Origin: Protonemura montana | Taxonomy: Eukaryota > Arthropoda > Insecta > Plecoptera > Nemouridae | Length of the DNA: 64,000 bases | Assembly (NCBI GenBank): GCA_947568835.1 | Contig: OX387607.1 | Span: 20,487,277 to 20,551,276 of the forward strand | Direction of reading: 5' to 3' | Shown: piece by piece, positions 3,195 to 64,000 of the stretch | Layout of the letters: each line of letters opens with the position of its first letter | How positions within the stretch are numbered: position 1 is the first letter of the stretch | Position numbers and translations under genes: made by a program | The notes under the pieces: generated by a model | What the model saw: the letters and a program-made list of their open reading frames with translations, nothing else | Told to the model about the DNA's origin: nothing | The model's database searches: none

Positions 3195-3220
3195 CTGGCT
3201 AGCTACCCAGACTCTCCAGA
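3195..3220 (-). repeat. S landmark (nonsense unit, first of 20)
   Basis: The unit contains GGCTAGCTACCC where most related units have GGCTCGCTACCC. On the minus strand this single C-to-A change (G-to-T there) turns a Glu codon GAG into TAG. Copies have their stop codon at 3199, 7609, 10278, 14268, 16877, 23688, 26297, 28936, 32505, 35714, 38654, 41083, 44023, 46481, 47919, 51607, 53045, 55984, 56014 and 63478. The 47919 and 53045 copies read GGCTAGCAACCC. Nearly all long minus-strand frames end here. Confidence 0.92.
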
Positions 3221-6200
3221 CACTCTGCCTCGCTAGCCAGGCGCTCCAGACACTCTGCCACGCTAGCCAGACGCTCCAGACACTCTGATTCGCTACCCAG
3301 ACGTTCAAGACACTTTGCCTCGCTCCCCAGACGCTCCAGACACTCTGCCTCGTTAGCCAGGCGCTTCAGAAGCTCTGCCTCGCTAGCCAGGCGCTCCAGA
3401 CACTCTGCCGTTCTAGCCAGACGCTCCAGACTATCTGCTACGCTAGCCAGAGGCTCCAGACACTCTGCCACGCTAAATAGACGCTCCAGACACTCTGCCT
3501 TGCTACCCAGAATCTCCAGACACTCTGCCTCGCTACCCAGACGCTTTAGACTATCTGCCACGCTAGCCAGTGGCTCCAGACACTCTGCCACGCTAGCTAG
3601 ACGTTCCAGGCACTCTGCCTCGCTACTTAGACGCTCCAGAAACTCTGCCTCACTAGCCAGGCACTCCAGACACTCTGGCTCGCTACCCAGACGATCCAGA
3701 CACTCTGCCTCCCTAGCCAGCCGCTCCAGACACTCTGCCATGCTAGCCAGAGATTTCAGACACTCTGCTACGCTAGCCAGACGCTCCAGACACTCTGCCA
3801 CGCTAGCCAGAGGCTGAAGACACTCTGCAATGCTAGCCAGACGCTCCAGACACTCTGCCACGCTAGCTAGACGCTCCAGACACTCTGATTCGCTACTTAG
3901 ACGCTCCAGACACCTTGCCTCGCTACCCAGACGCTCCAGACACTCTGCCTCGCTACCTAGACGCTTCAGACTATCTGCCACGCTAATCAGTGGCTCCAGA
4001 CACTCTGCCACGCTAGCTAGACGCTCCAGGCACTCTGTCTCGCTACTTAGACGCTCCAGACACTGTGCCTCGCTAGCCAGGCACTCCAGACACTCTGATT
4101 CGCTACCCAGACGTTCCAGACACTTTGCCTCGCTACCCAGACGCTCCAGACTATCTGCAACGCTAGCCAGAGGCTCCAGCCACTCTGCCACGCTAGCTAG
4201 ACGCTCCAGGCACTCTGCCTCGCTACTCAGACGCTCCAGACACTCTGCAATGCTAGCCAGACGCTCCAGACACTCTGCCACGCTAGCTAGACGCTCCAGA
4301 CACTCTGATTCGCTACTTAGACGCTCCAGACACCTTGCCTCGCTACCCAGACACACCAGACACTCTGCCTCGCTAGCTAAACGCTCCAGACACTCTGCCA
4401 TGCTAGCCAGAGATTTCAGACACTCTGCTACGCTAGCTAGACGCTCCAGACACTCTGCCACGCTAGCTAGACGCTCCAGGCACTCTGCCTCGCTACTTAG
4501 ACGCTCCAGAAACTCTGCCTTACTAGCCAGGCACTCCAGACACTCTGGCTCGCTACCCAGACGATCCAGACACTCTGCCACGCTAGCCAGTGGCTCCAGA
4601 CTATCTGCCACGCTAGCCAGAGGCTCCAGACACTCTGCCACGCTTGTTAGACAATCTAGACTTTCTGCCTTGCTAGCCAGGCGCTCCAGACACTCTGCCT
4701 CGCTAGCCAGACGCTCCAGACACTCTGCCTCGTTAGCCAGGCGCTTCAGAAGCTCTGCCTCGCTAGCCAGGCGCTCCAGACACTCTGCCATTCTAGCCAG
4801 ACGCTCCAGACTATCTGCTACGCTAGCCAGAGGCTCCAGACACTCTGCCACGCTAAATAGACGCTCCAGACACTCTGCCTTGCTACCCAGAATCTCCAGA
4901 CACTTTGCCTCGCTACCCAGACGCTCCAGACTATCTGCAACGCTAGCCAGTGGCTCCAGCCACTCTGCCACGCTAGCTAGACGCTCCAGGCACTCTGCCT
5001 CGCTACTCAGACGCTCCAGACACTCTGCAATGCTAGCCAGACGCTCCAGACACTCTGCCACGCTAGCTAGACGCTCCAGACACTCTGATTCGCTACTTAG
5101 ACGCTCCAGACACCTTGCCTCGCTACCCAGACACACCAGACACTCTGCCTCGCTAGCTAAACGCTCCAGACACTCTGCCTTGCTACCCAGACCCTCCAGA
5201 CACTCTGTCTCGCTAGCCATGCGCTCAAGAATTTCTGCCTCGCTACCCAGACGCTCCAGACTATCTGCCACGCTAGCCAGTGGCTCCAGACTATCTGCCA
5301 CGCTAGCCAGAGGCTCCAGACACTCTGCCACGCTTGTTAGACAATCCAGACTTTCTGCCTTGCTAGCCAGGCGCTCCAGACACTCTGCCTCGCTAGCCAG
5401 ACGCTCCAGACACTCTGCCTCGTTAGCCAGGCGCTTCAGAAGCTCTGCCTCGCTAGCCAGGCGCTCCAGACACTCTGCCATTCTAGCCAGACGCTCCAGA
5501 CTATCTGCTACGCTAGCCAGAGGCTCCAGACACTCTGCCACGCTAAATAGACGCTCCAGACACTCTGCCGTGCTACCCAGAATCTCCAGACACTCTGCCT
5601 CGCTAGCCAGGCGCTCCAGACACTCTGCCTCGCTACCCAGACGCTTTAGACTATCTGCCACGCTAGCCAGTGGCTCAAGACACTCTGCCACGCTAGCTAG
5701 ACGCTCCAGGCACTCTGCCTCGCTACTAAGACGCTCCAGAAACTCTGCCTCACTAGCCAGGCACTCCAGACACTCTGGCTCGCTACTTAGACGATCCAGA
5801 CACTCTGCCTTTCTAGCCAGCCGCTCCAGACACTCTGCCATGCTAGCCAGAGATTTCAGACACTCTGCTACGCTAGCTAGACGCTCCAGACACTCTGCCA
5901 CGCTAGCTAGACGCTCCAGACACTCTGCCTTGCTACTTAGACGCTCCAGAAACTCTGCCTTACTAGCCAGGCACTCCAGACACTCTGGCTCGCTACCCAG
6001 ACGATCCAGACACTCTGCCACGCTAGCCAGTGGCTCCAGACTATCTGCCACGCTAGCCAGAGGCTCCAGACACTCTGCCACGCTTGTTAGACAATCCAGA
6101 CTTTCTGCCTTGCTAGCCTGGCGCTCCAGACACTCTGCCTCGCTAGCCAGACGCTCCAGACACTCTGCCTCGTTAGCCAGGCGCTTCAGAAGCTCTGCCT

Positions 6201-7581
6201 CGCTAGCCAGGCGCTCCAGACACTCTGCCATTCTAGCCAGACGCTCCAGACTATCTGCTACGCTAGCCAGAGGCTCCAGACACTCTGCCACGCTAAATAG
6301 ACGCTCCAGACACTCTGCCTTGCTACCCAGAATCTCCAGACACTTTGCCTCGCTACCCAGACGCTCCAGACTATCTGCAACGCTAGCCAGTGGCTCCAGC
6401 CACTCTGCCACGCTAGCTAGACGCTCCAGGCACTCTGCCTCGCTACTCAGACGCTCCAGACACTCTGCAATGCTAGCCAGACGCTCCAGACACTCTGCCA
6501 CGCTAGCTAGACGCTCCAGACACTCTGATTCGCTACTTAGACGCTCCAGACACCTTGCCTCGCTACCCAGACACACCAGACACTCTGCCTCGCTAGCTAA
6601 ACGCTCCAGACACTCTGCCTTGCTACCCAGACCCTCCAGACACTCTGTCTCGCTAGCCATGCGCTCCAGAATTTCTGCCTCGCTACCCAGACGCTCCAGA
6701 CTATCTGCCACGCTAGCCAGTGGCTCCAGACTATCTGCCACGCTAGCCAGAGGCTCCAGACACTCTGCCACGCTTGTTAGACAATCCAGACTTTCTGCCT
6801 TGCTAGCCAGGCGCTCCAGACACTCTGCCTCGCTAGCCAGACGCTCCAGACACTCTGCCTCGTTAGCCAGGCGCTTCAGAAGCTCTGCCTCGCTAGCCAG
6901 GCGCTCAAGACACTCTGCCATTCTAGCCAGACGCTCCAGACTATCTGCTACGCTAGCCAGAGGCTCCAGACACTCTGCCACGCTAAATAGACGCTCCAGA
7001 CACTCTGCCTTGCTACCCAGAATCTCCAGACACTCTGCCTCGCTAGCCAGGCGCTCCAGACACTCTGCCTCGCTACCCAGACGCTTTAGACTATCTGCCA
7101 CGCTAGCCAGTGGCTCAAGACACTCTGCCACGCTAGCTAGACGCTCCAGGCACTCTGCCTCGCTACTTAGACGCTCCAGAAACTCTGCCTCACTAGCCAG
7201 GCACTCCAGACACTCTGGCTCGCTACTTAGACGATCCAGACACTCTGCCTCCCTAGCCAGCCGCTCCAGACACTCTGCCATGCTAGCCAGAGATTTCAGA
7301 CACTCTGCTACGCTAGCTAGACGCTCCAGACACTCTGCCACGCTAGCTAGACGCTCCAGACACTCTGCCTTGCTACTTAGACCCTCCAGACACTCTGCCT
7401 CGCTAGCCAGGCGCTCCAGACACTCTGCCTCGCAACCCAGACGCTCCAGACTATTTGCCACGATAGCCAGTGGCTCCAGACTATCTCCCACGCTAGCCAG
7501 AGGCTGCAGACACTCTGCAATGCTAGCCAGACGCTCCAGACACTCTGCCTCGCTAGCCAGCCGCTCCAGACACTCTGCCAT
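3199..7581 (-). other. Longest open frame, 1,460 codons; probably not a gene
   Basis: The frame is open from an ATG at 7581 to the S stop at 3199 and consists only of decapeptides of the form A-E-C-L-E-R-L-A-S-x, where x is E, V, I, M or K. Frequent substitutions are R to P, A-S to G-S and C-L to S-L. There is no unique N- or C-terminal sequence, signal peptide or recognisable domain. The pattern would favour a helix with Leu at positions 4 and 7 of each ten. It begins one unit after the previous S stop, so its length is simply the distance between two S units. It is antisense to another long frame. I recognise no family; a coding role is possible but unsupported. Confidence 0.2.
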
Positions 7582-7608
7582 GCTAGCCAGACGCTTCAGA
7601 CACTCTGG
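3199..7608. repeat. Higher-order repeat block A1
   Basis: This block is exactly 147 units (4,410 bp) from one S landmark to the next, with no register change. It is paired with A2 at 10278: the start-to-start distance of 7,079 bp is 236 units minus one base. Both A copies share a GCCGTTCTAGCC variant (about 3407 and 10486) where other blocks have GCCATTCTAGCC. Internally the block repeats its own sub-segments; for example the CCAGACACACC variant appears at about 4348, 5128 and 6568. A2 is 14 units shorter. Confidence 0.8.
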
Positions 7609-7612
7609 CTAG
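3830..7612 (+). other. Longest plus-strand open frame, 1,260 codons; probably not a gene
   Basis: The frame is made only of S-R-H-S-A-S-L-A-R-R-like decapeptides, so it would be a strongly basic, Ser- and His-rich product. It overlaps the 1,460-codon minus-strand frame almost completely. The two frames share third-codon columns, because plus and minus codons cover the same base triplets shifted by one. It starts at an internal ATG generated by a GCAATGCTAGCC unit and stops at the TAG of the S landmark. Nothing suggests a real start or end. Confidence 0.12.
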
Positions 7613-7945
7613 CTACCCAGACTCTCCAGACACTCTGCCTCGCTAGCCAGGCGCTCCAGACATTCTGCCACGCTAGCCAGACGCTCCAGACACTCTGATT
7701 CGCTACCCAGACGTTCAAGACACTTTGCCTCGCTCCCCAGACGCTCCAGACACTCTGCCTCGTTAGCCAGTAGCTTCAGAAGCTCTGCCTCGCTAGCCAG
7801 GCGCTCCAGACACTCTGCCATTCTAGCCAGACGCTCCAGACTATCTGCTACGCTAGCCAGAGGCTCCAGACACTCTGCCACGCTAAATAGACGCTCCAGA
7901 CACTCTGCCTTGCTACCCAGAATCTCCAGACACTCTGCCTCGCTA
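7609..7945. repeat. S-proximal cassette (example copy)
   Basis: About 11 units following S recur in almost the same order in most blocks. In order they include TCTGATTCGCTACCC, GACGTTCAAGACACTTTG, CGCTCCCCAG, CGTTAGCCAGGCGCTT, AGAAGCTCTGCC, a GCCATTCTAGCC unit, a CTATCTGCTACG unit and an AAATAG or AGATAG unit. Further copies start at the other S landmarks (3199, 10278, 14268, 16877, 23688, 26297, 28936, 32505, 35714, 38654, 41083, 44023, 46481, 47919, 51607, 53045 and 56014). Partial copies occur away from S, for example at 8900, 15690 and 60470. Confidence 0.8.
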
Positions 7946-8630
7946 GCCTGGCGCTCCAGACACTCTGCCTCGCTACCCAGACGCTTCAGACTATTTGCCA
8001 CGCTAGCCAGTGGCTCCAGACACTCTGCCACGCTAGCTAGACGCTCCAAGCACTCTGCCTCGCTACTTAGACGCTCCAGAAACTCTGCCTCACTAGCCAG
8101 GCACTCCAGACACTCTGGCTCGCTACCCAGACGATCCAGACACTCTGCCTCCCTAGCCAGCCGCTTTAGACACTCTGCCATGCTAGCCAGAGATTTCAGA
8201 CACTCTGCTACGCTAGCTAGACGCTCCAGACACTCTGCCACGCTAGCTAGACGCTCCAGACACTCTGCCTTGCTACTTAGACCCTCCAGACACTCTGCCT
8301 CGCTAGGCAGGCGCTCCAGACACTCTGCCTCGCTACCCAGACGCTCCAGACTATTTGCCACGCTAGCCAGAGGCTCCAGACACTCTGCCACGCTAGCTAG
8401 ACGCTCCAGACACTCTGCCTTGCTACCCAGAATCTCCAGACACTCTGCCACGCTAGCCAGTGGCTCCAGCCACTCTGCCACGCTAGCTAGACGCTCCAGG
8501 CACTCTGCCTCGCTACTTAGACGCTCCAGACACTCTGCCTCGCTAGCCAGCCGCTCCAGACACTCTACCACGCAAGCTAGACGCTCCAGGCACTCTGCAT
8601 CGCTAGCCAGGCGTTCCAGACACTCTGGCT

Positions 8631-8646
8631 CGCTCCCATACGCTCC
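8631..8646. repeat. D landmark (29-bp frameshift unit, first of 14)
   Basis: CGCTCCCATACGCTCC stands where CGCTACCCAGACGCTCC is expected, one base short. Other uncompensated copies lie at about 15440, 24860, 28430, 31068, 34277, 39826, 45195, 47683, 52809, 58535, 60302, 61022 and 62821. Those at 58535, 60302 and 61022 read CGCTTCCATACG and the one at 47683 reads CGCTGCCATACG. It ends plus-strand frames with a shared Pro-Tyr-Ala-Pro-Asp-Phe tail and shifts minus-strand frames into a Trp-rich frame. Confidence 0.9.
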
Positions 8647-10277
8647 AGACTTTCTGCCACGCTAGCCAGTGGCTCCAGACTATCTGCCACGCTAGCCAGA
8701 GGCTGCAGACACTCTGCAATGCTAGCCAGACGCTCCAGACACTCTGCCACGCTAGCCAGAGGCTGAAGACACTCTGCAATGCTAGCCAGGCGCTCCAGAC
8801 ACTCTGCCTCGCTAGCCAGCCGCTCCAGACACTCTGCCTCGCTAGCCAGGCGCTCCAGACACTCTGCCACGCTAGCCAGACGCTCCAGACACTCTGATTC
8901 GCTACCCAGACGTTCAAGACACTTTGCCTCGCTCCCCAGACGCTCCAGACACTCTGCCTCGTTAGCCAGGCGCTTCAGAAGCTCTGCCTCGCTAGCCAGG
9001 CGCTCCAGACACTCTGCCACGGTAGCCAGAGGCTGAAAACACTCAGCAATGCTAGCCAGACGCTCCAGACACTCTGCCACGCTAGCTAGACGCTCCAGAC
9101 ACTCTGATTCGCTACTTAGACGCTCCAGACACCTTGCCTCGCTACCCAGACACACCAGACACTCTGCCTCGCTAGCTAAACGCTCCAGACACTCTGCCCT
9201 GCTACCCAGACCCTCCAGACACTCTGTCTCGCTAGCCATGCGCTCCAGAATTTCTGCCTTGCTACCCAGACGCTCCAGACTATCTGCCACGCTAGCCAGT
9301 GGCTCCAGACTATCTGCCACGCTAGCCAGAGGCTCCAGACACTCTGCCACGCTTGTTAGACAATCCAGACTTTCTGCCTCGCTAGCCAGGCGCTCCAGAC
9401 ACTCTGCCTCGCAAGCCAGCCGCTCCAGACACTCTGCCACGCTAGCCAGACGCTCCAGACACTCTGATTCGCTACCCAGACGCTCCAGACTATTTGCCAC
9501 GCTAGCCAGAGGCTCCAGACACTCTGCCACGCTAGCTAGACGCTCCAGACACTCTGCCTCGCTAGCCAGGCACTCCAGACACTCTGATTCGCTACCCAGG
9601 CGTTCCAGACACTTTGCCTCGCTACCCAGACGCTCCAGACTATCTGCAACGCTAGCCAGGCGCTCCAGACACTCTGCCTCGCTACCCAGACGCTTTAGAC
9701 TATCTGCCACGCTAGCCAGTGGCTCCAGACACTCTGCCACGCTAGCTAGACGCTCCAGGCACTCTGCCTCGCTACTTAGACGCTCCAGAAACTCTGCCTC
9801 ACTAGCCAGGCACTCCAGACACTCTGGCTCGCTACCCAGACGATCCAGACACTCTGCCTCCCTAGCCAGCCGCTCCAGACACTCTGCCATGCTAGCCAGA
9901 GATTTCAGACACTCTGCTACGCTAGCTAGACGCTCCAGACACTCTGCCACGCTAGCTAGACGCTCCAGACACTCTGCCTTGCTACTTAGACCCTCCAGAC
10001 ACTCTGCCTCGCTAGCCAGGCGCTCCAGACACTCTGCCTCGCTACCCAGACGCTCCAGACTATTTGCCACGCTAGCCAGTGGCTCCAGACTATCTGCCAC
10101 GCTAGCCAGAGGCTGCAGACACTCTGCAATGCTAGCCAGACGCTCCAGACACTCTGCCACGCTAGCCAGAGGCTGAAGACACTCTGCAATGCTAGCCAGG
10201 CGCTCCAGACACTCTGCTTCGCTAGCCAGCCGCTCCAGACACTCTGCCATGCTAGCCAGACGCTTCAGACACTCTGG

Positions 10278-13200
10278 CTAGCTACCCAGACTCTCCAGAC
10301 ACTCTGCCTCGCTAGCCAGGCGCTCCAGACACTCTGCCACGCTAGCCAGACGCTCCAGACACTCTGATTCGCTACCCAGACGTTCAAGACACTTTGCCTC
10401 GCTCCCCAGACGCTCCAGACACTCTGCCTCGTTAGCCAGGCGCTTCAGAAGCTCTGCCTCGCTAGCCAGGCGCTCCAGACACTCTGCCGTTCTAGCCAGA
10501 CGCTCCAGACTATCTGCTACGCTAGCCAGAGGCTCCAGACACTCTGCCACGCTAAATAGACGCTCCAGACACTCTGCCTTGCTACCCAGAATCTCCAGAC
10601 ACTCTGCCTCGCTACCCAGACGCTTTAGACTATCTGCCACGCTAGCCAGTGGCTCCAGACACTCTGCCACGCTAGCTAGACGTTCCAGGCACTCTGCCTC
10701 GCTACTTAGACGCTCCAGAAACTCTGCCTCACTAGCCAGGCACTCCAGACACTCTGGCTCGCTACCCAGACGATCCAGACACTCTGCCTCCCTAGCCAGC
10801 CGCTCCAGACACTCTGCCATGCTAGCCAGAGATTTCAGACACTCTGCTACGCTAGCCAGACGCTCCAGACACTCTGCCACGCTAGCCAGAGGCTGAAGAC
10901 ACTCTGCAATGCTAGCCAGACGCTCCAGACACTCTGCCACGCTAGCTAGACGCTCCAGACACTCTGATTCGCTACTTAGACGCTCCAGACACCTTGCCTC
11001 GCTACCCAGACGCTCCAGACACTCTGCCTCGCTACCTAGACGCTTCAGACTATCTGCCACGCTAATCAGTGGCTCCAGACACTCTGCCACGCTAGCTAGA
11101 CGCTCCAGGCACTCTGTCTCGCTACTTAGACGCTCCAGACACTGTGCCTCGCTAGCCAGGCACTCCAGACACTCTGATTCGCTACCCAGACGTTCCAGAC
11201 ACTTTGCCTCGCTACCCAGACGCTCCAGACTATCTGCAACGCTAGCCAGAGGCTCCAGCCACTCTGCCACGCTAGCTAGACGCTCCAGGCACTCTGCCTC
11301 GCTACTCAGACGCTCCAGACACTCTGCAATGCTAGCCAGACGCTCCAGACACTCTGCCACGCTAGCTAGACGCTCCAGACACTCTGATTCGCTACTTAGA
11401 CGCTCCAGACACCTTGCCTCGCTACCCAGACAGACCAGACACTCTGCCTCGCTAGCTAAACGCTCCAGACACTCTGCCATGCTAGCCAGAGATTTCAGAC
11501 ACTCTGCTACGCTAGCTAGACGCTCCAGACACTCTGCCACGCTAGCCAGAGGCTCCAGACACTCTGCCACGCTTGTTAGACAATCCAGACTTTCTGCCTT
11601 GCTAGCCAGGCGCTCCTGACACTCTGCCTCGCTAGCCAGACGCTCCAGACACTCTGCCTCGTTAGCCAGGCGCTTCAGAAGCTCTGCCTCGCTAGCCAGG
11701 CGCTCCAGACACTCTGCCATTCTAGCCAGACGCTCCAGACTATCTGCTACGCTAGCCAGAGGCTCCAGACACTCTGCCACGCTAAATAGACGCTCCAGAC
11801 ACTCTGCCTTGCTACCCAGAATCTCCAGACACTTTGCCTCGCTACCCAGACGCTCCAGACTATCTGCAACGCTAGCCAGTGGCTCCAGCCACTCCGCCAC
11901 GCTAGATAGACGCTCCAGGCACTCTGCCTCGCTACTCAGACGCTCCAGACACTCTGCAATGCTAGCCAGACGCTCCAGACACTCTGCCACGCTAGCTAGA
12001 CGCTCCAGACACTCTGATTCGCTACTTAGACGCTCCAGACACCTTGCCTCGCTACCCAGACACACCAGACACTCTGCCTCGCTAGCTAAACGCTCCAGAC
12101 ACTCTGCCTTGCTACCCAGACCCTCCAGACACTCTGTCTCGCTAGCCATGCGCTCAAGAATTTCTGCCTCGCTACCCAGACGCTCCAGACTATCTGCCAC
12201 GCTAGCCAGTGGCTCCAGACTATCTGCCACGCTAGCCAGAGGCTCCAGACACTCTGCCACGCTTGTTAGACAATCCAGACTTTCTGCCTTGCTAGCCAGG
12301 CGCTCCAGACACTCTGCCTCGCTAGCCAGACGCTCCAGACACTCTGCCTCGTTAGCCAGGCGCTTCAGAAGCTCTGCCTCGCTAGCCAGGCGCTCCAGAC
12401 ACTCTGCCATTCTAGCCAGACGCTCCAGACTATCTGCTACGCTAGCCAGAGGCTCCAGACACTCTGCCACGCTAAATAGACGCTCCAGACACTCTGCCTT
12501 GCTTCCCAGAATCTCCAGACACTTTGCCTCGCTACCCAGACGCTCCAGACTATCTGCAACGCTAGCCAGTGGCTCCAGCCACTCTGCCACGCTAGATAGA
12601 CGCTCCAGGCACTCTGCCTCGCTACTCAGACGCTCCAGACACTCTGCAATGCTAGCCAGACGCTCCAGACACTCTGCCACGCTAGCTAGACGCTCCAGAC
12701 ACTCTGATTCGCTACTTAGACGCTCCAGACACCTTGCCTCGCTACCCAGACACACCAGACACTCTGCCTCGCTAGCTAAACGCTCCAGACACTCTGCCTT
12801 GCTACCCAGACCCTCCAGACACTCTGTCTCGCTAGCCATGCGCTCAAGAATTTCTGCCTCGCTACCCAGACGCTCCAGACTATCTGCCACGCTAGCCAGT
12901 GGCTCCAGACTATCTGCCACGCTAGCCAGGCGCTCCAGACACTCTGCCATTCTAGCCAGACGCTCCAGACTATCTGCTACGCTAGCCAGAGGCTCCAGAC
13001 ACTCTGCCACGCTAAATAGACGCTCCAGACACTCTGCCGTGCTACCCAGAATCTCCAGACACTCTGCCTCGCTAGCCAGGCGCTCCAGACACTCTGCCTC
13101 GCTACCCAGACGCTTTAGACTATCTGCCACGCTAGCCAGTGGCTCAAGACACTCTGCCACGCTAGCTAGACGCTCCAGGCACTCTGCCTCGCTACTTAGA

Positions 13201-14240
13201 CGCTCCAGAAACTCTGCCTCACTAGCCAGGCACTCCAGACACTCTGGCTCGCTACTTAGACGATCCAGACACTCTGCCTCCCTAGCCAGCCGCTCCAGAC
13301 ACTCTGCCATGCTAGCCAGAGATTTCAGACACTCTGCTACGCTAGCTAGACGCTCCAGACACTCTGCCACGCTAGCTAGACGCTCCAGACACTCTGCCTT
13401 GCTACTTAGACGCTCCAGAAACTCTGCCTTACTAGCCAGGCACTCCAGACACTCTGGCTCGCTACCCAGACGATCCAGACACTCTGCCACGCTAGCCAGT
13501 GGCTCCAGACTATCTGCCACGCTAGCCAGAGGCTCCAGACACTCTGCCACGCTTGTTAGACAATCCAGACTTTCTGCCTTGCTAGCCAGGCGCTCCAGAC
13601 ACTCTGCCTCGCTAGCCAGACGCTCCAGACACTCTGCCTCGTTAGCCAGGCGCTTCAGAAGCTCTGCCTCGCTAGCCAGGCGCTCCAGACACTCTGCCAT
13701 TCTAGCCAGACGCTCCAGACTATCTGCTACGCTAGCCAGAGGCTCCAGACACTCTGCCACGCTAAATAGACGCTCCAGACACTCTGCCTTGCTACCCAGA
13801 ATCTCCAGACACTTTGCCTCGCTACCCAGACGCTCCAGACTATCTGCAACGCTAGCCAGTGGCTCCAGCCACTCTGCCACGCTAGCTAGACGCTCCAGGC
13901 ACTCTGCCTCGCTACTCAGACGCTCCAGACACTCTGCAATGCTAGCCAGACGCTCCAGACACTCTGCCACGCTAGCTAGACGCTCCAGACACTCTGATTC
14001 GCTACTTAGACGCTCCAGACACCTTGCCTCGCTACCCAGACACACCAGACACTCTGCCTCGCTAGCTAAACGCTCCAGACACTCTGCCTCGCTACCCAGA
14101 CGCTCCAGACTATTAGCCACGATAGCCAGTGGCTCCAGACTATCTCCCACGCTAGCCAGAGGCTGCAGACACTCTGCAATGCTAGCCAGACGCTCCAGAC
14201 ACTCTGCCTCGCTAGCCAGCCGCTCCAGACACTCTGCCAT
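10278..14240 (-). other. 1,320-codon open frame in block A2; probably not a gene
   Basis: This is the equivalent of the 3199-7581 frame in the A2 copy. Both end in the same run, finishing E-C-L-E-S-L-G-S before the S stop. It is shorter by 140 residues, that is 14 whole units. The N-terminal portions agree closely and the centre has reordered sub-blocks, which shows that open length is free to vary between copies. Confidence 0.18.
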
Positions 14241-14267
14241 GCTAGCCAGACGCTTCAGACACTCTGG
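10278..14267. repeat. Higher-order repeat block A2
   Basis: The block is exactly 133 units (3,990 bp). Its left end is nearly identical to A1 over hundreds of bases. It differs from A1 by net loss of 14 whole units and by rearranged internal sub-blocks. Private substitutions include an ACAGACCAG variant at about 11429 and GCTCCTGAC at about 11612, the latter making a Gln codon in the minus frame and a stop in the plus frame. Confidence 0.8.
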
Positions 14268-49866: not shown

Positions 49867-49940
49867 GCCTCGCTAGCCAGTGGCTCCAGACTATCTGCCA
49901 CGCTAGCCAGAGGCTGCAGACACTCTGCAATGCTAGCCAG

Positions 49941-53044: not shown

Positions 53045-55983
53045 CTAGCAACCCAGACTCTCCAGACACTCTGCCTCGCTAGCCAGGCGCTCCAGACACT
53101 CTGCCACGCTAGCCAGACGCTCCATACACTCTGATTCGCTACCCAGACGTTCAAGACACTTTGCCTCGCTCCCCAGACGCTCCAGACACTCTGCCTCGTT
53201 AGCCAGGCGCTTTAGAAGCTCTGCCTCGCTAGCCAGGCGCTCCAGACACTCTGCCATTCTAGCCAGACGCTCCAGACTATCTGCTACGCTAGCCAGAGGC
53301 TCCAGACACTCTGCCACGCTAGATAGACGCTCCAGACACTCTGCCTTGCTACCCAGAATCTCCAGACACTCTGCCTCGCTAGCCAGGCGCTCCAGACACT
53401 CTGCCTCGCTACCCAGACGCTTTAGACTATCTGCAACGCTAGCCAGTGGCTCCAGACACTCTGCCACGCTAGCTAGACGCTCCAGGCACTCTGCCTCGCT
53501 ACTTAGACGCTCCAGAAACTCTGCCTCACTAGCCAGGCACTCCAGACACTCTGGCTCGCTACCCAGACGATCCAGACACTCTGCCTCCCTAGCCAGCCGC
53601 TCCAGACACTCTGCCATGCTAGCCAGAGATTTCAGACACTCTGCTACGCTAGCTAGACGCTCCAGACACTCTGCCACGCTAGCTAGACGCTCCAGACACT
53701 CTGCCTTGCTACTAAGACCCTCCAGACACTCTGCCTCGCTAGCCAGGCGCTCCAGACACTCTTCCTCGCTACCCAGACGCTCCAGACTATTTGCCACGCT
53801 AGCCAGAGGCTCCAGACACTCTGCCACGCTAGCCAGACGCTCCAGACACTCTGCCTCGCTAGCCAGGCGCTCCAGACACTCTGCCTCGCTATCCAGACGC
53901 TCCAGACACTCTGCCTCGCTAGCCAGCCTCTCCAGACACTCTGCAATGCTAGCCAGACGCTCCAGACTTTCTGCCACGCTAGCCAGAGGTTTTAGACACT
54001 CTGCTACGCTAGCTAGACGCTCCAGACACTCTGCCTTGCTACCCAGACCCTCCAGACACTCTGCCTTGCTACCCAGACCCTCCAGACACTCTGCCTCGCT
54101 AGCCAGGCGCTCCAGACACGCTGCCTCGCTACTTAGACGCTCCAGACTATCAGCCACGCTAGCCAGTGGCTCCAGATTATCTGCCACGCTAGCCAGACGC
54201 TCCAGACACTCTGCCTCGCTAGCCAGACGCTCCAGACTTTCTGCCACGCTAGCCAGAGGTTTTAGACACTCTGCTACGCTAGCTAGACGCTCCAGACACT
54301 CTGCGTCGCTAGCTTGACGCTCCAGACACTCTGCCTTGCTACCCAGACCCTCCAGACACTCTGCCCCGCTAGCCTGGCGCTCCAGACACTCTGCCTCGCG
54401 ACCCAGACGCTCCAGACACTCTGCCTCGCTACCCAGACGCTCCAGACTATCTGCCACGCTAGCCAAAGGCCCCAGACACTCTGCCACGCTAGCTAGACGC
54501 TCCAGACACTCTGCCTCGCTAGCCAGGCGCTCCAGACACTCTGCCTCGCTACCAAGACTCTCTAGACACTCTGCCTCGCTAGCCAGCCGCTTCAGACACT
54601 CTGCTACGCTACCCTGACGCTCCAGACTATCAGCCACGCTAGCCAGTGGCTCCAGATTATCTGCCACGCTAGCCAAAGGCTCCAGACACTCTGCCACGCT
54701 AGCTAGACGCTCCAGACACTCTGCCTCCCTAGCCAGACGCTCCAGACTTTCTGCCACGCTAGCCAGAGGTTTCAGACACTCTGCTACGCTAGCTTAACGC
54801 TCCAGACTTTCTGCTACGCTAGCCAGACGCTCAAGACACTATGCCACGCTAGCTTGACGCTCCAGACACTCTGCCTTGCTACCCAGACCCTCCAGACACT
54901 CTGCCTGCTACCCAGACGCTCCAGACACTCTGCCTCGCTAGCCAGGCGCTCCAGACACTCTGCCACGCTAGCTAGACGCTCCAGGCACTCTGCCTCGCTA
55001 CTTAGACGCTCCAGACACTCTGCCTCGCTAGCCAGCCGCTCCAGACACTCTACCACGCTAGCCAGACACTCCAGACACTCTACCACGCAAGCTAGACGCT
55101 CCAGGCACTCTGCCTCGCTACTTGGACGCTCCAGACACTCTGCCTCGCTAGCCAGGCGCTTCAGACACTCTGGCTGGCTACCCAGACGTTCCAGACACAC
55201 TGCCTCGCTAGCCAGCCTCTCCAGACACTCTACCACGCTAGCCAGACACTCCAGACACTCTACCACGCAAGCTAGACGCTCCAGGCACTCTGCCTCGCTA
55301 GCCAGGCGTTCCAGACACTCTGGCTCGCTTCCATACGCTCCAGAAATTTCTGCCTCGCTAGCCAGTGGCTCCAGACTATCTGCCACGCTAGCCAGAGGCT
55401 GCAGACACTCTGCAATGCTAGCCAGACGCTCCAGACACTCTGCCACGCTACCCAGAGGCTGAAGACACTCTGCAATGCTAGCCAGACGCTCCAGACACTC
55501 TGCCACGCTAGCTAGACGCTCCAGACACTCTGATTCGCTACTTAGACGCTCCAGACACCTTGCCTCGCTACCCAGACTCTCCAGACACTCTGCCTCGCTA
55601 CCTAGACGCTTCAGACTATCTGCAACGCTAGCCAGAGGCTCCAGACACTCTGCCACGCTAGCTAGACGCTCCAGACACTCTGCCTTGCTACCCAGAATCT
55701 CCAGACACTCTGCCACGCTAGCCAGTGGCTCCAGCCACTCTGCCACGCTAGCTAGACGCTCCAGGCACTCTGCCTCGCTACTTAGACGCTCCAGACACTC
55801 TGCCTCGCTAGCCAGCCGCTCCAGACACTCTACCACGCTAGCCAGACGCTCCAGACACTCTGCCACGCTAGCCAGAGGCTGAAGACACTCTGCAATGCTA
55901 GCCAGGCGCTCCAGACACTCTGCCTCGCTAGCCAGCCGCTCCAGACCCTCTGCCATGCTAGCCAGACGCTTCAGACACTCTGG
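53045..55983. repeat. Higher-order repeat block H2
   Basis: The block is 98 units minus one base (2,939 bp). It opens with the GGCTAGCAACCC form of S, as H1 does. It carries the GAGGTTTTAGAC units, the one-base deletion at 54901-54915 shared with 1610 and 57904, and a balanced D landmark at 55326-55350. It is the best match in the window for the left edge block (1-1650). Confidence 0.8.
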
Positions 55984-56035
55984 CTAGCTACCCAGACTCT
56001 CCAGACACTCTGGCTAGCTACCCAGACTCTCCAGA
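55976..56035. repeat. Doubled S landmark
   Basis: Two consecutive units both read GGCTAGCTACCCAGACTC, with stop codons at 55984 and 56014. Everywhere else S is single. This is a one-unit duplication at the S position. Confidence 0.85.
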
Positions 56036-57961
56036 CACTCTGCCTCGCTAGCCAGGTGCTCCAGACACTCTGCCACGCTAGCTAGACGCTCCAGACACTC
56101 TGATTCGCTACCCAGACGTTCAAAACACTTTGCCTCGCTCCCCAGACGCTCCAGACACTCTGCCTCGTTAGCCAGGCGCTTCAGAAGCTCTGCCTCGCTA
56201 GCCAGGCGCTCCAGACACTCTGCCATTCTAGCCAGACGCTCCAGACTATCTGCTACGCTAGCCAGAGGCTCCAGACACTCTGCCACGCTAGAAAGACGCT
56301 CCAGACACTCTGCCTTGCTACCCAGAATCTCCAGACACTCTGCCTCGCTAGCCAGGCGCTCCAGACACTCTGCCTCGCTACCCAGACGCTTTAGACTATC
56401 TGCCACGCTAGCCAGTGGCTCCAGACACTCTGCCACGCTAGCTAGACGCTCCAGGCACTCTGCCTCGCTACTTAGACGCTCCAGAAACTCTGCCTCACTA
56501 GCCAGGCACTCCAGACACTCTGGCTCGCTACCCAGACGATCCAGACACTCTGCCTCCCTAGCCAGCCGCTCCAGACACTCTGCCATGCTAGCCAGAGATT
56601 TCAGACACTCTGCTACGCTAGCTAGACGCTCCAGACACTCTGCCTTGCTACTTAGACCCTCCAGACACTCTGCCTCGCTAGCCAGGCGCTCCAGACACTC
56701 TGCCTCGCTACCCAGACGCTCCAGACTATTTGCCACGCTAGCCAGAGGCTCCAGACACTCTGCCACGCTAGCTAGACGCTCCAGACACTCTGCCTCGCTA
56801 GCCAGGCGCTCCAGACACTCTGCCTCGCTATCCAGACGCTCCAGACACTCTGCCTCGCTAGCCAGCCTCTCCAGACACTCTGCAATGCTAGCCAGACGCT
56901 CCAGACACTCTGATTCGCTACCCAGACGTTCAAGACACTTTGCCTCGCTCCCCAGACGCTCCAGACTATCTGCTACGCTAGCCAGAGGCTCCAGACACTC
57001 TGCCACGCTAGATAGACGCTCCAGACACTCTGCCTTGCTACCCAGAATCTCCAGACACTCTGCCTCGCTAGCCAGGCGCTCCAGACACTCTGCCTCGCTA
57101 CCCAGACGCTTTAGACTATCTGCCACGCTAGCCAGTGGCTCCAGACACTCTGCCACGCTAGCTAGACGCTCCAGGCATTCTGCCTCGATACTTAGACGCT
57201 CCAGAAACTCTGCCTCACTAGCCAGGCACTCCAGACACTCTGCCATGCTAGCCAGAGATTTCAGACACTCTGCTACGCTAGCTAGACGCTCCAGACACTC
57301 TGCCACGCTAGCAAGACGCTCCAGACACTCTGCCTTGCTACTTAGACCCTCCAGACACTCTGCCTCGCTAGCCAGGCGCTCCAGACACTCTGCCTCGCTA
57401 CCCAGACGCTCCAGACTATTTGCCACGCTAGCCAGAGGCTCCAGACACTCTGCCACGCTAGCTAGACGCTCCAGACACTCTTCCCGCTAGCCAGGCGCTC
57501 CAGACACTCTGCCTCGCTATCCAGACGCTCCAGACACTCTGCCTCGCTAGCCAGCCTCTCCAGACACTATGCAATGCTAGCCAGACGCTCCAGACTTTCT
57601 GCCACGCTAGCCAGAGGTTTTAGACACTCTGCTACGCTAGCTAGACGCTCCAGACACTCTGCGTCGCTAGCTTGACGCTCCAGACACTCTGCCTCGCGAC
57701 CCAGACGCTCCAGACACTCTGCCTCCCTAGCCAGACGCTCCAGACTTTCTGCCACGCTAGCCAGAGGTTTCAGACACTCTGCTACGCAAGCTTAACGCTC
57801 TAGACTTTCTGCTACGCTAGCCAGACGCTCAAGACACTATGCCACGCTAGCTTGACGCTCCAGACACTCTGCCTTGCTACCCAGACCCTCCAGACACTCT
57901 GCCTGCTACCCAGACGCTCCAGACACTCTGCCTCGCTAGCCAGGCACTCCAGACACTCTGC
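56014..57961. repeat. Mosaic block I
   Basis: The left part follows the usual S-proximal cassette with private changes (GGTGCTCCAG at about 56056, TTCAAAACAC at about 56119). The middle, 56281-57160, holds two versions of one sub-block about 720 bp apart. A one-base deletion at about 57484 (CTTCCCGCTAGCC) is followed by a short H-like stretch (GAGGTTTTAGAC at about 57613) and the GCCTGCTACCC deletion at about 57904. It has the appearance of several truncated HORs joined in register. Confidence 0.65.
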
Positions 57962-60449
57962 CACGCTAGCCAGACGCTCCAGACACTCTGATTCGCTACC
58001 CAGACGTTCAAGACACTTTGCCTCGCTCCCCAGACGCTCCAGACACTCTGCCTCGTTAGCCAGGCGCTTCAGAAGCTCTGCCTCGCTAGCCAGGCGCTCC
58101 AGACACTCTGCCATGCTAGCTAGACGCTCCAGACTATCTGCTACGCTAGCCAGAGGCTCCAGACACTCTGCCACGCTAGATAGACGCTCCAGACACTCTG
58201 CCTTGCTAGCCAGACGCTCCAGACTATCTGCAACGCTAGCCAAAGGCTCCAGACACTCTGCCACGCTAGCTTGACGCTCCAGACACTCTGCCTTGCTACC
58301 CAGAATCTCCAGACACTCTGCCACGCTAGCCAGTGGCTCCAGCCACTCTGCCAGGCTAGCTAGACGCTCCAGGCACTCTGCCTCGCTACTTAGACGCTCC
58401 AGACACTCTGCCTCGCTAGCTAGACTCTCCAGACACTCTGCCACGCTAGCCAGACACTCCAGACACTCTACCACGCAAGCTAGACGCTCCAGGCACTCTG
58501 CCTCGCTAGCCAGGCGTTCCAGACACTCTGGCTCGCTTCCATACGCTCCAGACTTTCTGCCTCGCTAGCCAGTGGCTCCAGACTATCTGCCACGCTAGCC
58601 AGAGGCTGAAGACACTCTGCAAAGCTAGCCAGACGCTCCAGACACTCTGCCACGCTAGCTAGACGCTCCAGACACTCTGATTCGCTACTTAGACGCTCCA
58701 ATCACCTTGCCTCGCTTCCCAGACGCTCCAGACACTCTGCCTCGCTACCTAGACGCTTCAGACTATCTGCCACGCTAATCAGTGGCTCCAGACACTCTGC
58801 CACGCTAGCTAGACGCTCCAGGCACTCTGCCTCGCTACTTAGACGCTCCAGACACTCTGCCTCGCTAGCCAGGCACTCCAGACACTCTGGTTCGCTACTC
58901 AGACGCTCCAGACACTCTGCCTCGCTAGCCAGCCGCTTAAGACACTCTGCCACGCTAGCTAGACGCTCCAGACACTCTGCCACGCTAGCCAGACGCTCCA
59001 GACACTCTGATTCGCTACCCAGACGTTCCAGACACTTTGCCTCGCTACCCAGACGCTCCAGAGTATCTGCAACGCTAGCCAGAGGCTCCAGACACTCTGC
59101 CACGGTAGCTAGACGCTCCAGACACTCTGCCTTGCTACCCAGAATCTCCAGACACTCTGCCACGCTAGCCAGTGGCTCCAGCCACTCTGCCACGCTAGCT
59201 AGACGCTCCAGGCACTCTGCCTCGCTACTTAGACGCTCCAGACACTCTGCCTCGCTAGCCAGCCGCTCCAGACACTCTACCACGCTAGCCAGACACTCCA
59301 GACACTCTACCACGCAAGCTAGACGCTCCAGGCACTCTGCCTCGCTACTTAGACGCTCCAGACACTCTGCCTCGCTAGCCAGGCGCTTCAGACACTCTGG
59401 CTGGCTACCCAGACGCTCCAGACACACTGCCTCGCTAGCCAGCCTCTCCAGACACTCTACCACGCTAGCCAGACACTCCAGACTCTCTACCACGCAAGCT
59501 AGACGCTCCAGGCACTCTGCCTCGCTACTTAGACGCTCCAGACACTCTGCCTCGCTAGCCAGGCGCTTCAGACACTCTGGCTGGCTACCCAGACGCTCCA
59601 GACACACTGCCTCGCTAGCCAGCCTCTCCAGACACTCTACCACGCTAGCCAGACACTCCAGACACTCTGCCACGCTAGCTAGACGCTCCAGACACTCTGA
59701 TTCGCTATTTAGACGCTCCAGACACCTTGCCTCGCTACCCAGACTCTCCAGACACTCTGCCTCGCTACCTAGACGCTTCAGACTATCTGCCACGCTAATC
59801 AGTGGCTCAAGACACTCTGCCACGCTAGCTAGACGCTCCAGGCACTCTGCCTCGATACTTAGACGCTCCAGACACTGTGCCTCGCTAGCCAGGCACTTCA
59901 GACACTCTGATTCGCTACCCAGACGTTCCAGACACTTTGCCTCGCTACCCAGACGCTCCAGACTATCTGCAACGCTAGCCAGAGGCTCCAGACACTCTGC
60001 CACGCTAGCTAGACGCTCCAGACACTCTGCCTTGCTACCCAGAATCTCCAGACACTCTGCCACGCTAGCCAGTGGTTTCAGCCACTCTGCCACGCTAGCT
60101 AGACGCTCCAGGCACTCTGCCTCGCAACTTAGACGCTCCTGACACTCTGCCTCGCTAGCCAGCCGCTCCAGACACTCTACCACGCTAGCCAGCCTCTCCA
60201 GACACTCTACCCTGCTAGCCAGACACTTCAGACACTCTACCACGCAAGCTAGACGCTCCAGGCACTCTGCCTCGCTAGCCAGGCGTTCCAGACACTCTGG
60301 CTCGCTTCCATACGCTCCAGACTTTCTGCCACGCTAGCCAGTGGCTCCAGACTATCTGCCACGCTAGCCAGAGGCTGCAGACACTCTGCAATGCTAGCCA
60401 GACGCTCCAGACACTCTGCCACGCTAGCCAGAGGCTCCAGACACTCTGC
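57962..60449. repeat. Higher-order repeat block J1
   Basis: The block corresponds to J2 at an offset of 2,488 bp (83 units minus two bases), as shown by shared variants such as GCCAGGCTAGC (about 58351 and 60839) and CCTTGCTAGCCAGAC near 58201 and 60690. It has two D landmarks (58535, 60302) with CGCTTCCATACG in place of CGCTCCCATACG, and a six-unit local duplication. Confidence 0.75.
59341..59660. repeat. 6-unit (180-bp) local tandem duplication in J1
   Basis: Positions 59341-59460 recur as 59521-59640 with no difference that I can see, including the rare variant CTGGCTGGCTACCC. J2 has this segment once (about 61859). The flanks differ in a GACTCTCTACC unit at about 59483. Confidence 0.88.
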
Positions 60450-62960
60450 CACGCTAGCCAGACGCTCCAGACACTCTGATTCGCTACCCAGACGTTCAAG
60501 ACACTTTGCCTCGCTCCCCAGACGCTCCAGACACTCTGCCTCGTTAGCCAGGCGCTTCAGAAGCTCTGCCTCGCTAGCCAGGCGCTCCAGACACTCTGCC
60601 ATGCTAGCCAGACGCTCCAGACTATCTGCTACGCTAGCCAGAGGCTCCAGACACTCTGCCACGCTAGATAGACGCTCCAGACACTCTGCCTTGCTAGCCA
60701 GACGCTCCAGACTATCTGCAACGCTAGCCAAAGGCTCCAGACACTCTGCCACGCTAGCTAGACGCTCCAGACACTCTGCCTTGCTACCCAGAATCTCCAG
60801 ACACTCTGCCACGCTAGCCAGTGGCTCCAGCCACTCTGCCAGGCTAGCTAGACGCTCCAGGCACTCTGCCTCGCTACTTAGACGCTCCAGACACTCTGCC
60901 TCGCTAGCTAGACTCTCCAGACACTCTGCCACGCTAGCCAGACACTCCAGACACTCTACCACGCAAGCTAGACGCTCCAGGCACTCTGCCTCGCTAGCCA
61001 GGCGTTCCAGACACTCTGGCTCGCTTCCATACGCTCCAGACTTTCTGCCTCGCTAGCCAGAGGCTGAAGACACTCTGCAAAGCTAGCCAGACGCTCCAGA
61101 CACTCTGCCACGCTAGCTAGACGCTCCAGACACTCTGATTCGCTACTTAGACGCTCCAATCACCTTGCCTCGCTACCCAGACGCTCCAGACACTCTGCCT
61201 CGCTACCTAGACGCTTCAGACTATCTGCCACGCTAATCAGTGGCTCCAGACACTCTGCCACGCTAGCTAGACGCTCCAGGCACTCTGCCTCGCTACTTAG
61301 ACGCTCCAGACACTCTGCCTCGCTAGCCAGGCACTCCAGACACTCTGGTTCGCTACTCAGACGCTCCAGACACTCTGCCTCGCTAGCCAGCCGCTTAAGA
61401 CACTCTGCCACGCTAGCTAGACGCTCCAGACACTCTGCCACGCTAGCCAGACGCTCCAGACACTCTGATTCGCTACCCAGACGTTCCAGACACTTTGCCT
61501 CGCTACCCAGACGCTCCAGAGTATCTGCAACGCTAGCCAGAGGCTCCAGACACTCTGCCACGGTAGCTAGACGCTCCAGACACTCTGCCTTGCTACCCAG
61601 AATCTCCAGACACTCTGCCACGCTAGCCAGTGGCTCCAGCCACTCTGCCACGCTAGCTAGACGCTCCAGGCACTCTGCCTCGCTACTTAGACGCTCCAGA
61701 CACTCTGCCTCGCTAGCCAGCCGCTCCAGACACTCTACCACGCTAGCCAGACACTCCAGACACTCTACCACGCAAGCTAGACGCTCCAGGCACTCTGCCT
61801 CGCTACTTAGACGCTCCAGACACTCTGCCTCGCTAGCCAGGCGCTTCAGACACTCTGGCTGGCTACCCAGACGCTCCAGACACACTGCCTCGCTAGCCAG
61901 CCTCTCCAGACACTCTACCACGCTAGCCAGACACTCCAGACTCTCTACCACGCAAGCTAGACGCTCCAGGCACTCTGCCTCGCTAGCCAGGCGTTCCAGA
62001 CACTCTGGCCCGCTTCCATACGCTCCAGAAATTTCTGCCTCGCTAGCCAGTGGCTCCAGACTATCTGCCACGCTAGCCAGAGGCTGCAGACACTCTGCAA
62101 TGCTAGCCAGACGCTCCAGACACTCTGCCACGCTAGCCAGAGGCTGAAGACACTCTGCAATGCTAGCCAGACGCTCCAGACACTCTGCCACGCTAGCTAG
62201 ACGCTCCAGACACTCTGATTCGCTATTTAGACGCTCCAGACACCTTGCCTCGCTACCCAGACTCTCCAGACACTCTGCCTCGCTACCTAGACGCTTCAGA
62301 CTATCTGCCACGCTAATCAGTGGCTCCAGACACTCTGCCACGCTAGCTAGACGCTCCAGGCACTCTGCCTCGATACTTAGACGCTCCAGACACTGTGCCT
62401 CGCTAGCCAGGCACTTCAGACACTCTGATTCGCTACCCAGACGTTCCAGACACTTTGCCTCGCTACCCAGACGCTCCAGACTATCTGCAACGCTAGCCAG
62501 AGGCTCCAGACACTCTGCCACGCTAGCTAGACGCTCCAGACACTCTTCCTTGCTACCCAGAATCTCCAGACACTCTGCCACGCTAGCCAGTGGTTTCAGC
62601 CACTCTGCCACGCTAGCTAGACGCTCCAGGCACTCTGCCTCGCAACTTAGACGCTCCAGACACTCTGCCTCGCTAGCCAGCCGCTCCAGACACTCTACCA
62701 CGCTAGCCAGCCTCTCCAGACACTCTACCACGCTAGCCAGACACTCCAGACACTCTACCACGCAAGCTAGACGCTCCAGGCACTCTGCCTCGCTAGCCAG
62801 GCGTTCCAGACACTCTGGCTCGCTCCCATACGCTCCAGACTTTTTGCCACGCTAGCCAGTGGCTCCAGACTATCTGCCACGCTAGCCAGAGGCTGCAGAC
62901 ACTCTGCAATGCTAGCCAGACGCTCCAGACACTCTGCCACGCTAGCCAGAGGCTGAAGAC
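60450..62960. repeat. Higher-order repeat block J2
   Basis: The block is the copy of J1. It has one instead of two of the 180-bp segment, and carries a balanced D landmark (62011-62036) that J1 lacks. Uncompensated D landmarks lie at 61022 and 62821. It retains the rare ATCACCTT variant (about 61158) also seen in J1 at about 58700. Confidence 0.7.
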
Positions 62961-64000
62961 ACTCTGCAATGCTAGCCAGACGCTCCAGACACTCTGCCAC
63001 GCTAGCTAGACGCTCCAGACACTCTGATTCACTACTTAGACGCTCCAGACACCTTGCCTCGCTACCCAGACTCTCCAGACACTCTGCCTCGCTACCTAGA
63101 CGCTTCAGACTATCTGCAACGCTAGCCAGAGGCTCCAGACACTCTGCCACGCTAGCTAGACGCTCCAGACACTCTGCCTTGCTACCCAGAATCTCCAGAC
63201 ACTCTGCCACGCTAGCCAGTTGCTCCAGCCACTCTGCCACGCTAGCTAGACGCTCCAGGCACTCTGCCTCGCTACTTAGACGCTCCAGACACTCTGCCTC
63301 GCTAGCCAGCCGCTCCAGACACTCTACCACGCTAGCCAGACGCTCCAGACACTCTGCCACGCTAGCCAGAGGCTGAAGACACTCTGCAATGCTAGCCAGG
63401 CGCTCCAGACACTCTGCCTCGCTAGCCAGCTGCTCCAGACACTCTGCCATGCTAGCCAGACGCTTCAGACACTCTGGCTAGCTACCCAGACTCTCCAGAC
63501 ACTCTGCCTCGCTAGCCAGGCGCTCCAGACACTCTGCCTCGCTACCCAGACGCTTTAGACTATCTGCCACGCTAGCCAGTGGCTCCAGACACTCTGCCAC
63601 GCTAGCTAGACGCTCCAGGCACTCTGCCTCGCTACTTAGACGCTCCAGAAACTCTGCCTCACAAGCCAGGCACTCCAGACACTCTGGCTCGCTACCCAGA
63701 CGATCCAGACACTCTGCCTCCCTAGCCAGCCGCTCCAGACACTCTGCCATGCTAGCCAGAGATTTCAGACACTCTGCTACGCTAGCTAGACGCTCCAGAC
63801 ACTCTGCCACGCTAGCAAGACGCTCCAGACACTCTGCCTTGCTACTTAGACCCTCCAGACACTCTGCCTCGCTAGCCAGGCGCTCCAGACACTCTGCCTC
63901 GCTACCCAGACGCTTCAGACTATCAGCCACGCTAGCCAGTGGCTCCAGATTATCTGCCACGCTAGCCAGAGGCTCCAGACACTCTGCCACGCTAGCTAGA
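62961..64000. repeat. Right-hand tail of the array
   Basis: The first part (to the S landmark at 63478) resembles 55475-55983. After S the S-proximal cassette is missing: the sequence passes directly to units that elsewhere lie about 330 bp further from S. The final units (TATCAGCC and GATTATCTGCC near 63925-63960) return to the H-type variants found at 1331-1370 and 49171-49210. The array runs off the window. Confidence 0.65.

Follow-up and report, generated by a model that had tools for sequence, protein, structure and literature searches.

We analysed a 64,000-bp stretch of the genome of Protonemura montana (assembly GCA_947568835.1; 258.5 Mb in 34 contigs), located at C5:20,487,277-20,551,276 and referred to below as the window. 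The window consists of a satellite with a 30-bp unit that is organised in nested, near-identical blocks, which keep the unit register and are each present in low copy number. Near-identical blocks are present on the contigs C5, C6, and C13, where probes revealed a flank-core-flank order with a more homogenised core. Taken together, these data make it very probable that the window belongs to a non-coding, heterochromatic satellite that has grown and been homogenised by the duplication and deletion of blocks and by their transfer between arrays on different chromosomes. The process is a known one and the satellite is new; a limited literature search, conducted mostly without subscription journals, returned no description of it, which is a weak form of absence.

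The window is a single array of 30-bp units

Tandem Repeats Finder described the whole window (1-64000) as one array with a period of 30, 2,134.1 copies, and 80% matches, and segmentation resulted in 2,134 units, namely, 2,104 of 30 bp, 26 of 29 bp, and 4 of 31 bp. The unit length and number (roughly 2,134) proposed in an initial annotation of the window were reproduced by both approaches. The units correspond to 270 distinct sequences, and those of 30 bp diverge on average by 11.6% from the consensus GACGCTCCAGACACTCTGCCTCGCTAGCCA. Neighbouring units share about 80% identity, as compared to 75% for random distinct units. The satellite has a single orientation in the window, where a 25-mer of the consensus occurred 175 times in the forward and 0 times in the reverse direction, and the retrieved DNA adjoining the window is the same satellite.

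There was no sign of an ancestral short higher-order repeat (HOR) of 1 to 12 units, since the identity by lag was flat (0.798-0.820, distinct windows). In 221 contiguous kb around the window (C5 20,370,000-20,590,999), obtained by joining adjoining retrieved pieces, none of the 201 perfect consensus units directly adjoined another, as would follow from a fixed block order. A search for three such units in succession had no match genome-wide. BLAST self-comparison was uninformative on the array, as everything merged at about 81%.

Several other features were sought. Positions 1-20000 of the window had no Rfam match at the gathering score. An organisation in inverted repeats or hairpins was rejected, as the one 12-kb stretch examined had only 4 weak pairs (74%), and three dimers showed no folding excess (z between -1.04 and 0.26). 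The window contained 0 CENP-B-box-like sites at up to one mismatch, with 2.0 expected by chance. A viral origin was also rejected, since the consensus 25-mer had 0 exact matches in viral_contigs, a collection from which records very near this genome are possibly omitted.

Blocks of units are duplicated within duplicated blocks

Whole units were compared at each lag, and a segment was considered a duplicate when it comprised 20 or more units and was 97% identical or more, a threshold set by us. The window contained 251 such segments, and 96.1% of its units were inside at least one of them, whereas 0 segments were detected in each of 5 unit shuffles and in each of 3 shuffles of five-unit blocks. 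The longest run of identical units comprised 140 units in the window, as compared to 3 in each of 5 shuffles. The proposal in the initial annotation that unit variants recur in fixed order through nested higher-order duplication is therefore well founded. Two general properties of HOR satellites were found: block copies are at least 97% alike, whereas neighbouring units are about 80% identical, and the order of the variants is beyond chance.

The autocorrelation of unit labels was above the maximum of 200 shuffles (0.034) at 58 of 1,399 lags. The highest peaks were at 314, 179, 628, 107, 992, and 207 units, with a maximal value of 0.150. Lags are additive, with 88 + 119 = 207 and 107 + 207 = 314, as nested duplication predicts, and this is a mark of duplications within duplications.

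The initial annotation had listed six periods and expected an autocorrelation peak at each of them. All six spacings were present in ungapped and unit-level comparisons. Two are true tandem duplications with two copies each, namely, 2,639 bp (88 units) and 5,369 bp (179 units; Table 1). The spacings of 7,079, 9,420, and 5,126 bp exist, but they separate non-adjacent copies of 71, 177, and 67 units, respectively, and are not tandem periods. The spacing of 2,488 bp is real as a lag of 83 units, but slips by one unit to 82. As to the expected peaks, the lags of 314 and 179 units were the strongest, and those of 88 (0.052) and 236 units (0.042) exceeded the shuffle maximum, as did, narrowly, that of 171 units (0.037); lags 82 and 83 were not among the 60 highest values.

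The array is a patchwork of nested duplications

In the 221 kb of C5 we detected 2,748 duplicate segments; the rest of the array was sampled by probes only. Considering as adjacent those duplications in which the overlap is at least 0.8 of the lag, there were 45, whose periods ranged from 18 to 179 units (median of 32) and which had 1.8 to 4.0 copies each. A period of 23 units was observed in 11 of these 45, and several of these 11 may go back to a single earlier event that was copied along with larger blocks. The array is thus a patchwork of nested tandem duplications and not one HOR iterated hundreds of times. The claim of HORs of 50-315 units organised as in alpha satellite did not hold in this form: lags such as 314 and 236 units are spacings of separated copies, and the adjacent blocks in the 221 kb reach at most 4.0 copies. 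What is present is the alpha-satellite signature of diverged monomers in near-identical blocks.

The patchwork was compared to 12 runs of a neutral simulation of random tandem duplication and deletion (median of 60 units) with mutation, using hand-set parameters. In 2 runs (300 events, lower mutation rate), the fractions of distinct units were 0.127 and 0.119 and the coverages by duplicates 0.934 and 0.921, which is close to the 0.127 and 0.963 observed for the array. Under this model, no selected period would be needed. Two transposons break up the 221-kb satellite stretch (Table 1), and both have short satellite repeats at each edge, as read by eye.

Near-identical blocks are shared between contigs

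One locus on C13 (L001) and two on C6 (L002 and L003) were 99.8% identical to C5 over 3.6 kb, and this likeness equals that of copies within C5. These loci, along with L004 and L008, were picked by a search for matches to the window and are therefore best cases. A marker pattern (41 matches) recurred with spacings of 2,487 and 1,198 bp on C5, C9, and C13, and with the 2,487-bp spacing on C6. Four probes from C2 had only 0-8% of their exact 30-mers in common with sets A or B of C5, C6, and C13 (defined below), yet resembled the same consensus. Being nearly devoid of shared 30-mers, they point to a separately evolving, diverged array on C2.

A non-satellite probe within the C6 array (L131, C6:980,000-980,399) had all of its 30-mers in the 221 kb of C5 and is therefore an exact match to one of the two C5 transposons. 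This is either a shared young element or a shared insertion.

A homogenised core lies inside more diverse flanks

Probes were scored by the fraction of their exact 30-mers present in set A, the 221 kb of the C5 core, or in set B, the flank (C5 20.70-20.736 Mb, C13 end, and C6 end), and each piece was scored without itself. Five probes from C5 20.00-20.20 Mb scored 0.06-0.15 for A and 0.27-0.55 for B. Seven satellite probes (20.25-20.35, 20.605, 20.62, and 20.685 Mb) scored 0.76-1.00 for A, and the probe at 20.665 scored 0.62; the probes at 20.635 and 20.65 were not satellite. At 20.70-20.736 Mb, B was back (A, 0.36 and 0.12; B, 0.72 and 0.91). The same order was observed on C13, with B at 17.00-17.08, A at 17.22-17.62, and B at 17.82 Mb (17.70 not satellite), and on C6, with B at 0.30-0.37, A at 0.45-0.90, and B at 1.10 Mb (0.98 not satellite).

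The 30-mers found in B but not in A amounted to 18-52% in the left flank of C5 (five probes), 33% and 16% in that of C13, and 12% and 53% in that of C6, so that 8 of 9 left-flank probes had 16-53%, and the ninth 12%. In the core, 17 of 18 satellite probes had 0-1%, and the probe at C5 20.665 had 4%. The same picture was obtained when A was cut to four 10-kb pieces to match B in size. Furthermore, distinct 30-mers made up 15-39% of 10 of the 11 core pieces of 10 kb (77% in the one that holds transposon sequence) and 42-55% of 4 flank pieces. These scores and diversities indicate a more homogenised core inside more diverse flanks on C5, C13, and C6, which is the layering of a homogeneous core and more diverse flanks seen in centromere satellites such as those of primates. 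This layered plan, invisible from the window alone, is a closer parallel to primate centromeres than the HORs first proposed.

Extent and location of the arrays

Contigs were surveyed in part, by spaced probes. On C5 (20.95 Mb), the probes at 19.40 and 20.740 Mb lacked the satellite, which was present between 19.55 and 20.736 Mb; the array thus has about 1.2 Mb and lies near the contig end. Beyond the array, C5 continues for about 210 kb, which were non-satellite at 5 of 5 probes and in the last 10 kb, and the contig end showed no telomere repeat. The satellite also begins at about 29.157 Mb on C2, which ends at 29.805 Mb, and between 16.7 and 17.0 Mb on C13, and in both cases the contig ends inside the array. 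Most of the C6 probes between 0.15 Mb and the end of this 1.1-Mb contig were satellite, and further satellite was found at the start of C8 and within C9.

The consensus 25-mer had 8,717 forward and 632 reverse exact occurrences genome-wide. Extrapolation from its density in the window would give a total of about 3.4 Mb of satellite, and the reverse copies indicate that some array or part of an array is inverted. The listing of matches in contig order begins in C2, and there was thus no exact match on C1, although this search would overlook diverged copies. At several other contig ends that were sampled, different repeats are present. The satellite is apparently not on every chromosome; such presence is not universal among centromere satellites.

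Alternative explanations and the strength of the preferred one

The minus strand could be read as a giant gene for a 10-residue repeat (ASEAECLERL frame), as a stop is present in this monomer frame in only 39 of 2,104 units, the longest open frame of the window has 1,469 amino acids, and stop-creating changes are below expectation (13 of 971 among distinct units, for an opportunity of 4 in 120). However, open frames of such length on the minus strand are to be expected, since the unit length of 30 is divisible by 3 and no stop occurs in that frame of the consensus. Each minus-strand frame has 1,037-1,196 stops over the window, single-base insertions or deletions number 30 (roughly one every 2 kb), and the most open monomer frame, with a dN/dS-like ratio of 1.19, gives no sign of residue constraint. 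A 527-amino-acid frame (L017) had no Pfam match with a stretch passing on its own. With stops in all six frames and no constraint, a coding gene on either strand was rejected, and its probability is negligible. That the near-identical blocks are assembly artefacts, resulting from false duplication or mis-joins of unresolved satellite, is improbable. C2, C13, and C6 do end inside the array, and several contig sizes are round numbers, which suggests scaffold splitting. But scattered substitutions and one-base insertions or deletions distinguish the copies, both transposons have satellite repeats at their two edges, as in true insertions, and the marker spacings recur on C5, C9, and C13.

Two further explanations, both tentative, concern the role of the satellite. 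It may be the functional centromere satellite of acrocentric chromosomes, with CENH3 chromatin on the core as a young active centre inside older flanks. Arrays of at least 0.65 Mb lie near one end of C2, C5, and C13, the opposite end of C13 starts with a telomere-like TTTGG repeat, three contigs are layered, and centromere satellites with short monomers are known from Chionographis (23 and 28 bp, with a higher-order cluster; PMC10264360) and Vicia faba (44-50 bp; PMC5895790). This is countered by C1 with its lack of an exact 25-mer match, subject to the limit for diverged copies given above, by the other repeats at several sampled ends, and by the three dimers without folding excess and the 0 CENP-B-box-like sites in the window. 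Alternatively, and with a similarly modest likelihood, it would be a subtelomeric satellite without centromere role, whose arrays are traded between chromosome ends. On the three chromosome-scale contigs in which it was found, it lies no farther than about 1.5 Mb from a contig end, in forward orientation among the matches listed, and near-identical blocks are common to C5 and C13. Yet the C5 array is followed by the 210 kb that were non-satellite wherever probed and that end without a telomere repeat. C8 has flank-type satellite at its start, is non-satellite at 0.06, 0.40, and 0.89 Mb, and its end has no telomere repeat. Pieces sampled beside the arrays showed no telomere repeat, but the true chromosome ends are unassembled there.

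The preferred explanation is that of a heterochromatic satellite shaped by block duplication and exchange. In-register tandem duplication and deletion would have acted repeatedly on blocks of about 20-180 units, with unequal sister exchange or break-induced replication as the presumable molecular step. Blocks would be transferred between arrays on different chromosomes in an exchange that may be ongoing, the core would be the younger layer, and the region would be heterochromatin near a contig end. Its role may be that of bulk heterochromatin; a pericentromeric or centromeric role is possible. Both the layers and the position would be consistent with a role in the centromere, but the satellite is apparently not present on every chromosome.

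Several observations speak against this explanation or narrow it. L004 (C6) and L008 (C13) were only 93-94% identical to C5 at the best single place. C6, as a 1.1-Mb contig, could be another haplotype, which leaves C5 versus C13 as the sole chromosome-scale comparison. As to the layers, the probes at C5 19.85 and 19.92, C13 17.15, and C6 0.22 Mb were mixed, those at C5 19.55 and 19.70 and C6 0.15 Mb matched neither set, and most probes had only 300-400 bp. In transposon-free 10-kb pieces, the core had 30-49% of its 30-mers in common with B, so that the layers are not separate families and the telling measure is that of the 30-mers in B but not in A. The other 10 of the 12 simulation runs gave distinct fractions of 0.164-0.421 and coverages of 0.737-0.952, the parameters had been set by hand, and no simulated autocorrelation peak exceeded 0.103, as compared to 0.150 observed; the dominant spacing of the real array is thus somewhat stronger than simulated. 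Considering the contigs alone, false duplications in the assembly are possible.

A more specific proposal, which we consider rather unlikely, is that of a 30-bp centromere satellite specific to a group of chromosomes, with an active core that is renewed by changing nested duplications and passed between non-homologous chromosomes, while the same monomer evolves separately on C2. If it were true, layering as in alpha satellite would be possible without a nucleosome-sized monomer, a CENP-B box, or a fixed HOR. In an assembled array of very short units, the history of nested duplication is readable block by block, and neutral models of unequal exchange and break-induced replication become testable outside primates and plants. 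Partly shared, layered arrays on three contigs beside a separate array on C2 would also make interchromosomal exchange measurable.

Comparison with other satellites

Alpha satellite has a monomer of 171 bp, and its arrays are dominated by an iterated HOR. In contrast, the monomer is 30 bp here, the 45 adjacent duplications in 221 kb do not exceed 4.0 copies, and the window has no CENP-B-box-like site. Adjacent blocks reach 179 units or about 5.4 kb, a length in base pairs that does not exceed that of 59 monomers of 171 bp. The longest HORs comprise 34 monomers in human (PMC8997354) and 59 in primates (PMC11276891). The satellite resembles primate alpha satellite in its diverged monomers in near-identical multi-monomer blocks and in its layers with the most uniform part in the centre; in the sections of PMC8997354 that deal with these arrays, the youngest part of primate centromeres is in the middle, and monomers are swept into HORs by unequal exchange, with break-induced replication as a model.

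Like the satellite described here, Chio1 and Chio2 of Chionographis japonica (PMC10264360) have very short monomers, of 23 and 28 bp, in megabase arrays with a higher-order cluster. This species is a plant in which CENH3 enrichment was shown; there are 7-11 units on each chromosome, with dyad symmetry and mixed orientations. In the window, by contrast, the orientation is single, and the three dimers have no folding excess. In Vicia faba, some centromeric monomers have only 44-50 bp, and satellites are each specific to one chromosome, whereas the family studied here is on at least three chromosome-scale contigs. V. faba is also a plant, chromatin immunoprecipitation of CenH3 was done, and nested blocks of this kind are not described in the part of PMC5895790 consulted.

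Table 1. Coordinates of the satellite array, its duplicated blocks, and the transposons (window positions, unless C5 is given)
Feature	Coordinates	Strand	Details
30-bp satellite array, part of longer C5 array	1..64000	+	Consensus as given in the text; based on Tandem Repeats Finder, distinct units, and adjoining DNA
71-unit block	2340..4469	+	Copy at 9419-11548, lag 7079 bp (236 units), 99.6%, not adjacent
Tandem pair	4380..7379	+	Period 1440 bp (48 units), 99.2% identical
177-unit block	12629..17937	+	Copy at 22049-27357, lag 9420 bp (314 units), 99.5%, not adjacent
Tandem repeat	20308..23308	+	Period 1201 bp (40 units), 99.2% identical
Second copy of the 9420-bp-lag block	22049..27357	+	Parts again from 30147 and from 33476
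Copied block	23939..27687	+	Copy at 30147-33895, lag 6208 bp (207 units = 88 + 119), 99.8%
Tandem pair	25888..31255	+	Period 2639 bp (88 units), 91-unit overlap, 2 copies, 99.5% identical
Tandem pair	30267..36774	+	Period 3209 bp (107 units), 99.7% identical; absent from the list of the initial annotation
Tandem pair	35335..46102	+	Period 5369 bp (179 units), 180-unit overlap, 2 copies, 99.9% identical
67-unit block	46223..48229	+	Copy at 51349-53355, lag 5126 bp (171 units), 99.0%, not adjacent
Slipping lag	57943..61959	+	83 units (2488 bp) over ~20 units, slipping to 82 units (2458 bp) over ~30 units
Gypsy-type element	C5 20,400,961-20,407,362		Reverse transcriptase, RNase H, integrase
LINE-type element (long interspersed nuclear element)	C5 20,448,460-20,454,651		Endonuclease, reverse transcriptase, RNase H

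Other observations on the assembly

A Helitron is located at the C5 end (L026, C5:20,939,852-20,949,851), with a frame of 1,893 amino acids that contains Helitron_like_N and PIF1 domains. Matches to it were observed on C2, C4, C5, C7, C8, C11, C12, C15, and C33, many of them on the small contigs C7 and C8. From 194 candidate places, 40 were scored, and all 40 were 100% identical over 600 bp; 25 had the top score, the query place included. This identity indicates a very young family.

Two nuclear copies of the mitochondrial COI region were found on C4 (5,760,925-5,762,262 and 5,776,811-5,777,755). In score, the first equals the copy on the mitochondrial contig C34, and it is either a recent transfer or a mis-join. 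Against the same PDB chain, COI scored 910.6 bits when translated with the invertebrate mitochondrial code (table 5) and 877.4 bits with table 4, which, along with TTAGG tracts in the assembly, points to an arthropod-like animal.

Telomere-like repeats were found at a number of contig ends. The TTAGG repeat, typical of arthropods, was present at the 3' ends of C12 and C17 and the 5' end of C16, and TTTGG at the 3' ends of C1 and C11 and the 5' end of C13. On C1, at least 100 TTTGG matches are listed, from 33,120,494 onwards, and the repeat fills the last 300 bases. The two motifs represent either two telomere types or a base-calling artefact. Other contig ends carry tandem repeats that were read by eye: a GCTAGGTCCAGGTTAGC type is common to the 3' ends of C4 and C15, a GCTGACTGAAGACCTGTACTAAG type was observed at the 3' end of C16, and a 12-bp CATGTCCTGCCC type is present at the starts of C17, C21, C24, and C25.

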